DNA of 64,000 nucleotides, from the NCBI RefSeq assembly GCF_015711015.1, contig NZ_CP064653.1:3472001-3536000 (forward strand), read 5' to 3'. This document shows positions 14,851-31,631 of this stretch, one piece after another. Numbering within the stretch: position 1 is the stretch's first letter; the number at the start of each line of letters is the position of its first letter. The notes below the pieces were generated by a model. The model searched no databases. It saw only the letters and a list, made by a program, of their open reading frames with translations, and had not been told where the DNA came from. A program made the translations under genes and the position numbers. This stretch comes from Methylomonas sp. LL1 (GTDB taxonomy: Bacteria; Pseudomonadota; Gammaproteobacteria; Methylococcales; Methylomonadaceae).

Positions 14851-14878
14851 ACTATACAGTATAAAAAAATGTTTACAA
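14851..14878 (-). promoter_or_regulatory. Sigma70-like promoter for the small membrane-peptide gene
   Basis: On the minus strand, -35 TTGTAA (14878-14873) and -10 TATAGT (14856-14851) are separated by 16 bases. This would give a 5' leader of about 65-70 bases before the ATG at 14777. Confidence 0.45.
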
Positions 14879-14897
14879 TTAGGTGTTTATAAAATAA

Positions 14898-14909
14898 ATT
14901 GTATACAAT
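14898..14909. promoter_or_regulatory. Palindrome in the lysR / small-peptide divergent region
   Basis: ATTGTATACAAT is a perfect 12-base palindrome between the two divergently read genes, about 60 bases ahead of the lysR start and just upstream of the small-gene promoter. It is a plausible operator, possibly for the adjacent LysR protein, but the region is AT-rich, so chance is not excluded. Confidence 0.3.
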
Positions 14910-14970
14910 AAAGAAACAATTAGAATGTCAAACATTTTTTTACTTAACCTTATTCTCGCGTGAGCCGCTT

Positions 14971-23847: not shown

Positions 23848-24030
23848 TGTGGATAAACTGCTGTAAAAAATACCATCTCAAGTTATCCACAATCAGTAAA
23901 CAAGCACGAACCCGGACAAACCACAATATTATTTTTCATACAAAGCTATGATTTTTATTAAAAATAATAGCTTTTCCACAACAAACATCAATGCTAGTAG
24001 TAATAATTAAATAAAGATATTTATATGTTT
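23848..24030. other. Origin-like module A (candidate oriC)
   Basis: Two perfect DnaA boxes, TGTGGATAA (23848-23856, reverse) and TTATCCACA (23883-23891), are followed by TTTTCCACA (23972-23980, one mismatch), then after 14 bases TAGTAGTAA (23995-24003), then an AT-rich tail ending ATATTTATATG near 24027. The dnaA-dnaN gap has the same elements at the same spacing (35, 88-89 and 23 bases start to start). The similarity continues a little past the ATG into ATTATTAAGCA, which resembles the first codons of dnaN. It fits an origin with an unwinding element; function is inferred. Confidence 0.6.
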
Positions 24031-24096
24031 ATAATTATTAAGCAACGGCAGTCTTACGGCAAACAACCTTGTTTAAACCTTGATGAATTGGTCAAG

Positions 24097-25443
24097 CTAA
24101 CTGCCTTGATCTTGCTGCATTTGCTCGGTCAAACTTTTTGGCAACTTCTTCTTGACCTTCACGCCTAATTCCTCAAAAGCGCTGGCTTGACGGAGCAGAT
24201 TGCCACTGCCGGTACTCAGTTTGTTGACAATACCGTCGTAAGTCTTGTGGACAGTGTTGAGCTGGTTGCCGAGTTTTTCGATGTCTTCCACGAAGCCTCT
24301 GATCTTGTCGTACAAACTGCCGGCCTTATCGGCGATCAGTCTGGCGTTTTCGTTCTGTTGCTCGTAGCGCCAGATGTTTTGCACGGTGCGCAGCGTCGCC
24401 AGCAAGGTGGTCGGGGTGACGACGACGATCTTGTGTTCGAAGGCATCGTTGAACAGCTTTTCATCGGCCTGAAACGCAGCCATGAAAGCGGCTTCGATCG
24501 GCATGAACAGCAACACGAAATCCAGCGAGCGCAGGCCTTTCAGGCTGGAATAATCCTTGTTGCTCAGGCCCTTGATGTGGTTACGCACCGCTTCGGTGTG
24601 CTGTTTCAAGGCTTCGATACGCTGGTTGTCGTCTTCCGCCGAACAATAACGCTCATAGGCCAACAAGGATACTTTGGAATCGATGATCACATCCTTGTTT
24701 TCCGGCAGGCGGACGATGACGTCGGGCTTGAACAAGCGGTTGTCTTCGTCGCGGAACGCGCCCTGGGTTTGATATTCGATACCCTTGCGTAAACCGGATT
24801 GCTCCAGCACTTTTTCCAAAATCATCTCTCCCCAGTTGCCCTGGGCTTTGTGATCGCCTTTCAAGGCGCGGGTCAAATTCAGCGCTTCCTGGTTCATTTT
24901 GGCGGTATCGCGGCGTAGGGAAACGATTTCCTCGCGCAGACTGATCCTGTCCTTGGTTTCGTTGTCGTAGACGCTTTCGACGCGGTTTTTGAATTCACCA
25001 AGTTGCTGTTTCAGCGGTTCGACTAAGGTTTCTATGCTGACTTTATTGTGTTCTGCAAATTGCTTGCCGCGTTCTTCAAAGATCTTGTGCGCTAGACTCT
25101 CGAACTGGGCTTTTAACTGATTTTCCGCATCTTGCAGCAAGCGAATTTTTTCGGCATTGCTTTTATGTTGTTCCTGCTGGCGGGCGTTGAGATCGGCGTT
25201 TTCGGTTTTCAGTTGTAACAATTGCTGTCGCAGGGTCTCCAGCTCGGCTTCCTTGGTTTGCAACAAGGTCAGTCTTTCCTCGGCCACCGCCAGTTTTACG
25301 GCTTGTTGCTGGAGTTGCTGTTGCTGCTCTTCGATTTGCCGGCTTAGTATCAACCGGCGTTTGCCAGTTAGCCAGGCGCTAACGCCATATCCAACCAATG
25401 CAGCAAGCACTGTGGTTATTGGCAAAATCCAAGTTTCAATCAA
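24097..25443 (-). CDS. rmuC: DNA recombination protein RmuC
   Basis: I place the start at the TTG at 25443, which follows GGAGCAAGGA, giving 448 residues; another TTG 14 codons upstream has no ribosome-binding site. An N-terminal membrane anchor (WILPITTVLAALVGYGVSAWL) is followed by a long coiled coil (about 40-150) and the RmuC nuclease-like domain with GDHKAQGNWGEMILEKVLEQSGLRKG, PDVIVRLPENKDVIIDSKVSLLAYERY and FMPIEAAFMAAF. RmuC limits DNA inversions at short repeats. Its 3' end lies about 70 bases from origin-like module A. Confidence 0.9.
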   Translation of the reverse strand: MIETWILPITTVLAALVGYGVSAWLTGKRRLILSRQIEEQQQQLQQQAVKLAVAEERLTLLQTKEAELETLRQQLLQLKTENADLNARQQEQHKSNAEKIRLLQDAENQLKAQFESLAHKIFEERGKQFAEHNKVSIETLVEPLKQQLGEFKNRVESVYDNETKDRISLREEIVSLRRDTAKMNQEALNLTRALKGDHKAQGNWGEMILEKVLEQSGLRKGIEYQTQGAFRDEDNRLFKPDVIVRLPENKDVIIDSKVSLLAYERYCSAEDDNQRIEALKQHTEAVRNHIKGLSNKDYSSLKGLRSLDFVLLFMPIEAAFMAAFQADEKLFNDAFEHKIVVVTPTTLLATLRTVQNIWRYEQQNENARLIADKAGSLYDKIRGFVEDIEKLGNQLNTVHKTYDGIVNKLSTGSGNLLRQASAFEELGVKVKKKLPKSLTEQMQQDQGS

Positions 25444-25969
25444 AATCCTTGCTCCAAGATGATAACAACGACGATAGTCGGCCAATGCATCTCCGCCCAG
25501 CCATTATCAAATTATGCATTCGTTCCGCTGCGAAACCTTGGAAACGAAGCGTTAGCGAGTGAAGGTTGAGTAGTCCCTGGAAGCCGTAGCGCCGGGCGGT
25601 TTTTCGACTAGAAAAACTGCAAGGCATCGCGAAACGGCGTCGAGTCATGCGAGAGCCAAGGCTTTGATCCCCTTGTTGGGTCAAAGGCGAGGCGACGCGG
25701 ACGGCCAGGGCCGCCGCAGGCAATCACGTGGCGGTGTAGGCGCGATTGCTAGCCAGGGATGGCTAGCAATCTTTCCCGCCGGAAGCCGACACTCGCCGAC
25801 TGGTTCCCACGCGCTGTGTGGTAACCCAGATTTCGCCGCGCTGCGGCGAGAAAGCCCGGCATTCCCTTGCAGCGAGTGGGAATGAGGAATAACAGCTGTC
25901 ATAGGGCAGATATCCGCCCTTGTACGGGTTACACGTTGCGGAAAGCAGGTCGCGGTGTCGCCCACTAGA
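25444..25969. repeat. GC-rich stem-loop region between lprI-like gene and rmuC
   Basis: No convincing gene; short open frames here have no ribosome-binding site and low-complexity composition. At least three stem-loops are visible: GATTGCTAGCC / GGCTAGCAATC (25744-25771, perfect 11-base arms, 6-base loop), CGCCGC / GCGGCG (25834-25848) and CATTCCC / GGGAATG (about 25859-25884). It reads like a cluster of interspersed palindromic repeats. Confidence 0.45.
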
Positions 25970-26414: not shown

Positions 26415-27695
26415 TCACAACCCCTTAAACACCTCACCCGCAGCATCCACAGTCGCCTGCAAATCCTGATCCGTATGCGCCGCCGAGACGAAACCAGCCT
26501 CAAATGCCGAAGGCGCCAGATACACGCCTTGTTCCAGCATGCCATGGAAGAAGCGTTTGAAACGGTCCTGATCGCACTTCATCACCTGGGCGAAACGGCT
26601 GATGGATTTTTCCTCAGTGAAGAACAAACCAAACATCGCGCCAACCTGATTGGTGGTGAAGGCGATGCCGGCCTGGTCGGCGGCAGCTTGCAGGCCGGCC
26701 AGCAATTGCGTGGTTTTGGAGGTCAAGGCCTGATAGAAACCCGGTGCGCTAATCAATTCCAGGGTTTTCAAACCCGCCGCCATTGCCACCGGATTGCCAG
26801 ACAAGGTGCCGGCCTGATAGACCGGACCCAGCGGGGCCAGATGTTCCATGATCTTGCGGCTGCCGCCGAAGGCGCCGACCGGCATGCCGCCGCCGATGAT
26901 CTTGCCCAGCGTGGTCAGATCGGGTTTGATGTTGTATAGGCCTTGCGCGCTATGCAGATCTACTCGGAAACCGGTCATCACTTCATCGAAAATCAGCACG
27001 CTGCCGTATTGGTCGCAGACTTCACGCAAGGTTTGCAAAAAGCCCGGTTTCGGCGGAATGCAGTTCATGTTGCCGGCCACCGGCTCGACGATGATGCAGG
27101 CGATCTTGTCGCCGAGTTCGACGAAGGTGCTGCGTACCGCGTCGCTGTCGTTATAGGTCCGCGTGATGGTGTCGGCGGCGACAGAGGCCGGCACGCCGGG
27201 CGAGCTGGGCACGCCGAAAGTCAATGCGCCGGAACCGGCCTTGACCAATAAAGAATCGGAATGGCCGTGGTAGCAGCCCTCGAATTTGACGATCTTGTCG
27301 CGGCCGGTGTAGCCGCGCGCCAGACGCAAGGCGCTCATGGTGGCTTCGGTGCCGGAGCTGACCATGCGCACCATGTCTATGGACGGCAGCATTTCGCAGA
27401 CTTTTTGCGCCATGCGGGTTTCGATTTCGGTCGGTGCACCGAAGCTCAGGCCTTTTTCGGCGCTTTGCTTGACGGCTTCAATGACATCCGGATGGGCGTG
27501 GCCCAGGATCATCGGTCCCCAGGAACCGACGTAATCGATGTAGCGTTTGTTTTCGCTGTCATAGACGTAGGCGCCCTGGGCGCGGTCGAAGTAGACCGGC
27601 GTGCCGCCGACGCCGCTAAAGGAGCGCACAGGGGAATTAACGCCGCCGGGGATGAATTTTTTGGCTTGGGTGAATAGGTCGCTGGATTGTGTCAT
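26415..27695 (-). CDS. hemL: Glutamate-1-semialdehyde 2,1-aminomutase
   Basis: The 426-residue PLP-dependent class III aminotransferase-fold enzyme has an N-terminal [48 protein letters not shown] and the PLP-lysine motif [18 protein letters not shown], with the [17 protein letters not shown] partner loop. It makes 5-aminolevulinate from glutamate-1-semialdehyde in the C5 pathway to tetrapyrroles. Full length. It is separated from the upstream lipoprotein gene by tandem inverted repeats. Confidence 0.96.
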
Positions 27696-28276: not shown

Positions 28277-28909
<633 letters not shown>

Positions 28910-29016: not shown

Positions 29017-30339
29017 ATGCCAATGAGCGCTATTTGGAACAATTGTCTGGCCAAACTTGAGCACGAAATACCTACGACCGATTTCAGTACCTGGATAAGG
29101 CCATTACAGGCCGTGGAAACCGATAGCCAGTTGAAATTGCTGGCCCCCAACCGTTTCATCATCGACCATATCAAGCAACATTTTTTTTCCGCAATAGAAG
29201 ACGCGGTTAATGAATTTTCCAATGCAACCCTGGCCGTGCAATTTGAAATCGGCAGCAAAAAAGCCCCAGCCATCAAGGCTCCCACGCTGAACAAAAGTCC
29301 GACTCAAAAAAAGAACCAGCCTAATTTTTTGAACAAAGCTTTTACCTTTGAAAGCTTCGTCGAAGGTAAATCCAATCAACTGGCCAGAGCCGCATCGGTG
29401 ACGGTTTCCGATAATATCGGCAAAGTCTATAACCCGCTGTTCATTTACGGCAGTTCCGGTTTGGGCAAGACTCATTTGATGCATGCGATTGGCAATGCCG
29501 TGTTGCTGAAAAATCCCAATGCCAACATCGTTTATCTGCACTCGGAAAAGTTCGTGCAGGACATGGTCAAAGCCTTACAACAAAACAGCATCAATTACTT
29601 TAAAGACTACTATCGTAACATCGACGTATTGTTGATGGATGACATCCAGTTTCTGGCCGGCAAGGAACGTTCACAAGAAGAGTTTTTCCACACCTTTAAT
29701 AATTTGTTGGATCAAAAACATCAAGTGGTACTGACCTGCGATAAATATCCCAAGGAAATCGTTGGTCTGGAAGACAGACTGAAATCGCGTTTCGGCTGGG
29801 GTTTGCCGGTGGCGATCGAACCGCCCGATTTGGAAACACGCACCGCGATTTTGATCAAAAAAGCCATGCAGGCCGGCGTAACCCTGGAACAGGAAATAGC
29901 CTTCTTCATCGCCAAACGCATTCCTTCCAATGTTAGAGATCTGGAAGGCGCATTAAGACGTGTGGTTGCCAACTCGCAATTTACCGGCCGTGAAATCACC
30001 CTGGAATTTACCAAGGAAGCCTTGCACGACTTGATCAGCCTGCAGGATAAACTGGTTAGCATCGACAACATTCAAAAAACCGTGGCCGAGTATTTCAAAA
30101 TCCGCGTGGCGGATTTGTCAGCCAAAAGCCGTAAACAATCGTTGACCCGCCCCCGGCAAATTGCCATGTGTCTGGCTCGAGAATTAACTTCGCATAGTTA
30201 TCCGGAAATCGGCGATGCCTTTGGCGGTCGCGACCACACCACGGTCATCAACGCTTGTAAGCGGGTTGCCGAGTTGAAAGACGACGATGTAAAAATTGCC
30301 GAAGACTATAAAAACCTGTTGAGAACTCTATCGCATTAA
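29017..30339 (+). CDS. dnaA: Chromosomal replication initiator DnaA
   Basis: The 440-residue protein may begin at 29017 or at the ATG two codons later ([13 protein letters not shown]); neither has a clear Shine-Dalgarno sequence. Domain I is about 1-80, with a lysine-rich linker to about 105. The AAA+ domain III (about 105-320) has Walker [11 protein letters not shown] and Walker [12 protein letters not shown]. Domain IV (about 350-440) has the box-binding signature [37 protein letters not shown]. It binds DnaA boxes and opens the origin. A possible -10 TATTAT lies at 28984-28989. It heads dnaA-dnaN-recF-gyrB. Confidence 0.97.
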
Positions 30340-30340
30340 T

Positions 30341-30530
30341 TGCGGATAAGTTGGGGATAAACCGGGGTGAAATCGTGCTAGTTGAGTTATCCCCAATCCT
30401 CCAACAGGCTAAATTTGAGATAAGCAACAAGTTAAAACTTAGCTAAACTTATGTTTATTCAGTATAAACAATGGTTTTCCACAGCTTTTTGTCTACATAG
30501 TAGTAACAATAAATAAAAAATATTTATATG
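30341..30530. other. Origin-like module B in the dnaA-dnaN gap
   Basis: It contains TGCGGATAA (30341-30349), TGGGGATAA (30352-30360), TTATCCCCA (30387-30395) and TTTTCCACA (30475-30483), each one base from the DnaA-box consensus. After 14 bases comes TAGTAGTAA (30498-30506), then an AT-rich stretch running into the dnaN start codon. Layout and spacing match module A at 23848-24030. It probably doubles as a DnaA-regulated promoter region for dnaN. Confidence 0.6.
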
Positions 30531-31631
30531 AAATTTATTATAAGCAGAGATCAAATCTTAGCGCCGCTACAACAAATCGTCAGCGTGATCGAGAAACGGC
30601 AAACCATGGTCATCCTGTCCAATGTGTTGCTGCAAGTAAACGATGGACGCTTGGTAATGACCGGCTCGGACACCGAAATTCAGATTGTCAGCCAGCTTAA
30701 TCTGGAATTACCGGCGGACGATGGCGAAATCACGGTTCCAGCCCGTAAATTTTTGGATATTTGTCGCTTACTCCCTTCCGGCGCCGAAATTAAATTTGAA
30801 CTACAGCAAGACAAAGTTAAATTGGCATCGGGACGCAGCCGATTTTCATTAAGTACCCTTCCCGCCGAAAATTATCCCGAGTTCAACGAGTCCGAATTTG
30901 ACTATCAGTTTTTCCTAAATGCTGGAAAATTCAAGAAAGGTTTGGATAAAACGCTGTTTTGCATGGCTAACCAGGATGTGCGCTATTACCTAAATGGTTT
31001 GTTACTGCATGTCAGCAACTCCAAACTGAAATTAGTCGCATCGGATGGCCATCGTTTATCGATTTTCGAAGGCGATATAGGCCAAGCCACGGGGTATGAG
31101 GCTCGTATCATCCTGCCTAGAAAGGCTGTTCAGGAAATCAACCGTTTATTGGATGATGTCGATGCCGAACTCAACATCCAGTTTTCCAATAATCACATCC
31201 GTATTTTGTATAAAGACGTGGTGTTCTCGTCGAAACTGATCGACGCAAAATTCCCCGACTTTAGCAAAGTGTTTAACCAATCCTTCATGAGCCCTTTACT
31301 GATTCAAAAGCAATTGTTGAGAGAGGCACTGACTCGTGTGGCGATTCTCTCCAATGAAAAATACAAGGGGGTGACATTTGATATTGGTGGCGACTTATTA
31401 AAACTCAGCACGCATAATCCGGAGCATGATGAAGCCGAGGAAGAATTGATCATCGACTATCAGGGACAGTCATTGAACATTGCTTTTAATTCACAATACA
31501 TGTTGGATGCGGTTTCCAATCTGGATTCAGAACTGGCAGTGATGACAATAGCCAGCAATGCCAGCAGTTGCATCATAGAGGAACCCGAACAACCTTTATT
31601 CAAGTTTATTGTGATGCCGATGCGGATGTAA
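30528..31631 (+). CDS. dnaN: DNA polymerase III subunit beta (sliding clamp)
   Basis: The 367-residue protein has three clamp repeats: N-terminal MKFIISRDQILAPLQQIVSVIEKRQTMVILSNVLL, central FDASDGHRLS-type segment (LVASDGHRLSIFEGD) and a C-terminal NAQYMLDA-type segment (NSQYMLDAVSNLDSE), ending with the canonical FIVMPMRM. As a dimer it encircles DNA and tethers the polymerase. The start ATG is embedded in the AT-rich tail of origin-like module B, so translation start and possible unwinding element coincide. Confidence 0.97.
   Translation: MKFIISRDQILAPLQQIVSVIEKRQTMVILSNVLLQVNDGRLVMTGSDTEIQIVSQLNLELPADDGEITVPARKFLDICRLLPSGAEIKFELQQDKVKLASGRSRFSLSTLPAENYPEFNESEFDYQFFLNAGKFKKGLDKTLFCMANQDVRYYLNGLLLHVSNSKLKLVASDGHRLSIFEGDIGQATGYEARIILPRKAVQEINRLLDDVDAELNIQFSNNHIRILYKDVVFSSKLIDAKFPDFSKVFNQSFMSPLLIQKQLLREALTRVAILSNEKYKGVTFDIGGDLLKLSTHNPEHDEAEEELIIDYQGQSLNIAFNSQYMLDAVSNLDSELAVMTIASNASSCIIEEPEQPLFKFIVMPMRM

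Follow-up and report, generated by a model that had tools for sequence, protein, structure and literature searches.

Bacteria are normally expected to have one oriC, and the known split origins share its parts between two sites; DnaA-control sites of the datA/DARS kind are DnaA boxes without an unwinding region. We found no earlier reports on Methylomonas or Methylococcales origins in open-access text. In the bipartite origins of Bacillus subtilis and Helicobacter pylori, two DnaA-box clusters are separated by dnaA and joined by DnaA looping (PMC4285127, PMC8235120). Known bipartite origins carry the unwinding element in one half only and span up to about 2 kb (PMC4285127). For Pseudomonas aeruginosa, two autonomously replicating elements are described (Yee and Smith 1990; Jiang et al. 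2006, as cited in PMC4403523 and PMC4285127), and the DoriC database holds putative double origins, that is, more than one oriC-like region per chromosome, which stem from duplicated dnaA clusters or from distant predictions (PMC4403523). The DnaA-trio pattern consists of a box, a spacer of at most 16 bp and at least three NAN repeats with the consensus 3'-GAT-5' (PMC8287927), also given as 5'-YTD-3' on the box strand (PMC8235120).

We analysed a 64-kb stretch of the Methylomonas sp. LL1 chromosome (hereafter the window; positions 3472001-3536000 of 4.80 Mb). The initial annotation had placed here two sites with the same ordered boxes, TAGTAGTAA and an AT-rich tail, and the coordinates and spacings were confirmed on both sides (Table 1). 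In both the left module (M1) and the right module (M2), a reverse DnaA box is followed by a forward box at +35, a third box at +123/124, and then TAGTAGTAA and the AT-rich unwinding region. In M1, TAGTAGTAA begins at 23995, 23 bases past box 3, and the AT-rich tails of both modules read ATATTTATATG. The right module had been quoted as starting at 30341; the module itself is real, but its homologous start is 30352, and 30341 is an extra box 11 bases earlier. The two modules are separated by 6.5 kb and five genes, namely dnaA and four others. The 308-aa orphan protein encoded to the left of M1 is conserved in many Methylomonas genomes despite having no Pfam match.

Table 1. Features of the two modules and of the genes around and between them (window coordinates).
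Feature	Position	Strand	Remark
Orphan gene, 308 aa	22772..23698	-	left of M1; no Pfam match
M1 DnaA box 1, TTATCCACA	23848..23856	-	perfect
M1 DnaA box 2, TTATCCACA	23883..23891	+	perfect; +35 from box 1
M1 IHF-like site, CAAAGCTATGATT	23941..23953	-	1 mismatch; -31 from box 3, a position common to most modules
M1 box 3, TTTTCCACA	23972..23980	+	+89 from box 2
M1 unwinding region (predicted)	23982..24041	.	weakest 60-bp duplex of the 64-kb window
M1 trio-like repeat, TAGTAGTAATAATTA	23995..24009	+	contains left arm of inverted repeat
M1 inverted repeat, right arm, TAATTATTA	24032..24040	.	stretch resembling first dnaN codons
rmuC (PF02646)	24097..25485	-	3' end adjoins M1
hemL-like class-III aminotransferase gene	26415..27695	-	between modules
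Lipoprotein-like gene, 152 aa	27811..28269	-	between modules; no Pfam match
gmk, guanylate kinase (PF00625)	28277..28891	-	
dnaA, replication initiator	29017..30339	+	
Additional box, TTATCCGCA	30341..30349	-	upstream of M2, outside the shared layout
M2 DnaA box 1, TTATCCCCA	30352..30360	-	
M2 DnaA box 2, TTATCCCCA	30387..30395	+	+35 from box 1
M2 box 3, TTTTCCACA	30475..30483	+	+88 from box 2
M2 unwinding region (predicted)	30483..30542	.	second weakest 60-bp duplex of the window; extends into first dnaN codons
M2 trio-like repeat, TAGTAGTAA	30498..30506	+	23 bases past box 3
dnaN, sliding clamp	30528..31631	+	

Aligned base by base, as the initial annotation had proposed, M1 and M2 gave a full-module score of 114, compared with 47.5 ± 7.2 for 500 dinucleotide shuffles (shuffle maximum 74). 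The inverted box pair at 35 bp, with up to 3 mismatches allowed, occurs in exactly two places of the whole 4.92-Mb genome, M1 and M2, with no third copy at this threshold, and the reversed control pattern of the pair had 0 matches in the same 4.92 Mb. The three-box layout with up to 4 mismatches was likewise confined to these two places in 864 kb of the genome searched on both strands. A profile built only of dnaN-side modules from other genomes recovered M1 at E = 1.7e-20. When 60-bp stretches of the window are ranked by duplex stability, the lowest two places go to the unwinding regions, which start at 23982 and 30483; third from the bottom is 14853-14912, a stretch with no DnaA box cluster.

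Judged by its sequence, the left site qualifies as a full oriC module, the second of the chromosome: it has the inverted pair at 35 bp, a third box with an adjacent easily melted region, and homology to the profile. It lies 5 kb upstream of dnaA and thus outside the dnaA-dnaN gap, a location that is a usual rather than a functional mark of oriC, so the label "oriC module" follows from what the site contains and not from its place.

The perfect inverted pair was present in 19 of the 281 gammaproteobacterial genomes sampled, and the reversed control pair had no match among these 281. Besides the window's own, there are 18 pair loci, 17 with dnaA alongside and 16 of these also with dnaN; most of these dnaA-dnaN gap loci also match the Methylomonas module profile. 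Since the pair is almost always found beside dnaA, it is close to diagnostic of an oriC in this class, though most of the sampled genomes lack the perfect form. The exception is a distant gammaproteobacterium (G115; L284, G115:C6:185890-185933), in which a perfect pair lies 4.2 kb upstream of dnaA.

Within the order, two modules upstream of dnaN are also found in Methylovulum and some other Methylococcales, and Methylobacter usually has one. Methylobacter sp. BlB1 has a second oriC module (L163:450-614) about 8 kb upstream of dnaA, beyond genes resembling mnmE, yidC and rnpA, which may be an independent split. In other Methylococcales, stretches resembling the module but inverted were observed upstream of dnaN or dnaA (L183:9502-9652, L194:780-927, L185:1333-1422), and three loci (L165, L168, L170) contain three partial modules each.

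Relatives were found via dnaN, and the named ones are Methylomonas strains. The initial annotation had made its reading depend on conservation of the left module in close relatives, and the left module is indeed conserved there: both modules are kept in at least 29 genomes of Methylomonas. The split form (18 genomes) has M1 at the 3' end of rmuC (rmuC being absent in G026) and M2 between dnaA and dnaN, while in the tandem form (11 genomes) both modules lie just upstream of dnaN, about 345-440 bp apart, the M1 orthologue adjoining the dnaN-side module. The laboratory strain Methylomonas sp. LW13 is of the split type and has both M1 and M2. The intermodule spacing ranges from about 0.35 to 7.7 kb and never exceeds 7.7 kb in the genomes seen. 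By profile, three genomes (G001, G032 and G007) have one module only, indicating that two modules are not strictly essential in the group. The dnaA of G001 was matched in two adjoining pieces (L093:1532-2753), for which a broken frame or a MAG contig error may be responsible.

Among the M1 copies of relatives, box columns are 92-98% identical and spacers 45-55%. M1 and M2, as aligned, are strongly diverged except in their motifs. Conserved motif columns between unconserved spacers and this divergence make it hardly credible that M1 is a recent, decaying duplicate, and an assembly artefact is contradicted by the same left junction in independent assemblies of other species. A role for M1 as a promoter region through which DnaA regulates the orphan gene or rmuC is also very improbable. 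Although M1 lies about 150 bp upstream of the start of the 308-aa orphan gene, it is retained in G026, where both rmuC and the orphan gene are lost, and its orthologues lie elsewhere in the tandem genomes; rmuC, for its part, points toward M1, which therefore sits at the 3' end of that gene.

In a tree of the modules, the left (M1/T1) and dnaN-side (M2/T2) copies form two opposite clades across both arrangements, with one exception, the T1 copy of G003, whose misplacement suggests gene conversion. Because these clades span both arrangements, the duplication is older than the split. On these comparative grounds, the left module is ancient and selected. A one-time origin of the split arrangement was rejected, since the concatenated protein tree, built with FastTree, divides the split genomes into two well-supported clades with tandem genomes between them, which needs more than one change. 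The arrangement has thus changed more than once while both modules stayed; two split origins and a restored tandem are both compatible with this.

The box pairs of the two modules are unequal in 22 of the 27 genomes in which both were scored. In the window, the M1 pair is perfect and M2 has TTATCCCCA at both boxes, and M1 has the better pair in most of the window's clade and of the tandem genomes. In most of clade B the better pair belongs to M2, which is mostly perfect there, M1 mostly having one TTATCCCCA. This pattern, read from box sequences and not from affinity, suggests that one partner is strong and the other weak, and that the two can exchange roles. The same inequality, with the better module varying by clade, could also be expected of two independent alternative origins with shifting usage, of which M1 with its perfect boxes would be the main one in the window; each module is complete, with boxes, a weak duplex and mostly an IHF-like site. 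We regard this explanation as unlikely, as the modules lie within 7.7 kb of each other in every genome seen and share a single skew trough, as expected of one unit, and two free-running origins so near each other would be hard to keep in step.

GC skew was calculated from 20-kb samples at 20 spaced positions and from 464 kb of continuous sequence. At low coordinates it is positive, near 1.1 Mb it becomes negative, and the cumulative curve bottoms out in a broad plateau at about 3.50-3.54 Mb, with the actual minimum at 3539007, some 37 kb to the right of dnaA. The curve therefore places the origin in or beside the window and the terminus about half a chromosome away. As a check on the two sites, which the initial annotation had intended it to be, the cumulative skew succeeds in part: the trough includes the window, but at 6.5 kb the modules are too close for it to separate M1 from M2.

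dnaA and dnaN are not neighbours in eight Methylomonas genomes (loci L084, L085, L086, L088, L090, L097 and L222-L228); where measured, about 45 to 270 kb lie between them. The genomes with a moved dnaA include several of the tandem form. In G035, G011 and G020, gmk, the lipoprotein-like gene and hemL had travelled with dnaA, and no module was found beside dnaA at its new position. The skew minimum of G035 (3267002) is close to its modules (3271.6-3272.3 kb) and about 136 kb from dnaA, which had moved 140 kb. In G032, the minimum falls between 190 and 270 kb, the sole recognised module is at 271 kb, and dnaA is at 0, about 270 kb away. The minimum thus lies at or near the modules even where dnaA has moved, which ties the modules, and not dnaA, to the origin. 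Two samples of G032 on either side of the origin (L261, G032:C1:140001-160000; L266, 340001-360000) have unusually strong GC skew of opposite sign, -0.18 and +0.14.

The unwinding region of the left copies forms an inverted repeat, TAGTAATAA ... TTATTACTA. The mean inverted-repeat score of the M1 copies is 10.0, compared with 5.7 ± 0.25 for shuffled sequences, the copies being related sequences whose independence this comparison overstates. With 9 bp (p 0.025 against shuffles), the repeat of the M1 in the window is modest; across relatives it is clear. The M2 arms by themselves are weaker and overlap dnaN codons. The resemblance of M1 to the first codons of dnaN, pointed out in the initial annotation, is real, but what resembles those codons in M1 is the repeat's right arm, and the right arm of M2 overlaps the first dnaN codons, which explains why the left site looks like a dnaN start. 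A dnaN relic in M1 was rejected, since M1 copies that have no dnaN sequence at all still retain the right-arm repeat.

The supposed likeness to DnaA-trio elements holds in part: in the canonical reading after box 3 (CTA GTA GTA ATA on the box strand) the middle base is fixed, but the first base is degenerate and does not always fit, and TAGTAG has reverse polarity. Read by eye against the published pattern (PMC8287927), M1 has a 13-bp spacer followed by four repeats, GAT CAT CAT TAT, with this degenerate first base; trios nearer the consensus have reverse polarity (left arm) or lie some 40-50 bp off (right arm). An IHF-like site is located at -31 from box 3 in 45 of the 58 modules; in the window's M2, the best IHF-like match is not at -31. 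A homologue of ihfA, encoding the IHF alpha-subunit, is present and scores above the family cut-off.

These features also bear on the idea that M1 is a former origin copy turned into a DnaA-control site, serving titration or DnaA-ATP recycling in the manner of datA/DARS. In favour of this idea, DnaA should bind well to perfect boxes close to the origin, and one of the two modules is usually weaker. A control site, however, needs no unwinding region, whereas M1 has the weakest duplex of the window, repeat arms (10.0 against 5.7) and full spacing, and in the tandem genomes its orthologue directly adjoins the dnaN-side module. We consider such a role improbable.

The initial annotation had offered the left site as perhaps the true oriC or one half of a bipartite origin; as both modules are complete, neither is a mere half of an origin. 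The left site is probably a complete second oriC copy, anciently duplicated and kept by selection, that forms one twin-module origin with the right module. Layout, homology, conservation, co-retention and skew position were computed; the binding of DnaA and IHF, the opening and looping of the DNA and the joint firing of the modules we infer to run as follows. In each module DnaA would occupy the inverted pair; the DNA would be bent by IHF, whose site lies 31 bases ahead of box 3 in most copies; and DnaA would then spread from box 3 into the AT-rich repeats and open them. Of the window's two modules, M1, whose boxes are perfect, would be loaded first and would retain DnaA, and M2 with its TTATCCCCA boxes would be filled through cooperation over a 6.5-kb loop. 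Either unwinding region could open, and initiation would be shared and counted as one event. A more far-reaching proposal, which we put forward tentatively as possible rather than probable, is that Methylomonas has carried two oriC paralogues, each functional in its own right, from a time before the genus diversified, and that these alternate as the stronger one by lineage and are both required for normal initiation despite a variable spacing (about 0.35 to 7.7 kb) and a dnaA up to about 270 kb off.

Methylomonas thus offers a whole module that is duplicated, with old copies, in tandem and split versions among cultured, closely related methanotrophs. With these relatives one can ask directly why some origins are split and how two complete DnaA-opened sites come to be counted as a single origin. 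In this family, oriC annotation by dnaA position or skew can miss or misplace origins.

The oriC of the gammaproteobacterial dnaA-dnaN gap (Pseudomonas class; Yee and Smith 1990, cited in PMC4285127) has the same inverted pair, third box and trio-like AT-rich region, the pair being found in the dnaA-dnaN gaps sampled here; Methylomonas differs in having the whole module twice, the second one outside the gap. P. aeruginosa, as cited above, resembles Methylomonas in having two origin-like regions on one chromosome; the Methylomonas copies are ancient paralogues with one layout and with a tandem form in relatives. In contrast to the DoriC doubles, Methylomonas duplicates the non-coding module only, and retention is seen across the genus. 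M1 partly resembles the DnaA-trio basal unwinding system (PMC8287927, PMC6669920), with a box, a spacer within 16 bp and repeats with a fixed middle base, and departs from it in the degenerate first base of the repeats in canonical polarity. Unlike datA/DARS, M1 is more than a set of boxes, as it has an unwinding region. Finally, Methylomonas has, like the bipartite origins, two box clusters with dnaA (plus four genes) between them, but the unwinding region is present in both halves, and five genes and 6.5 kb separate them. We therefore do not file the Methylomonas origin as bipartite, although it may work like one.
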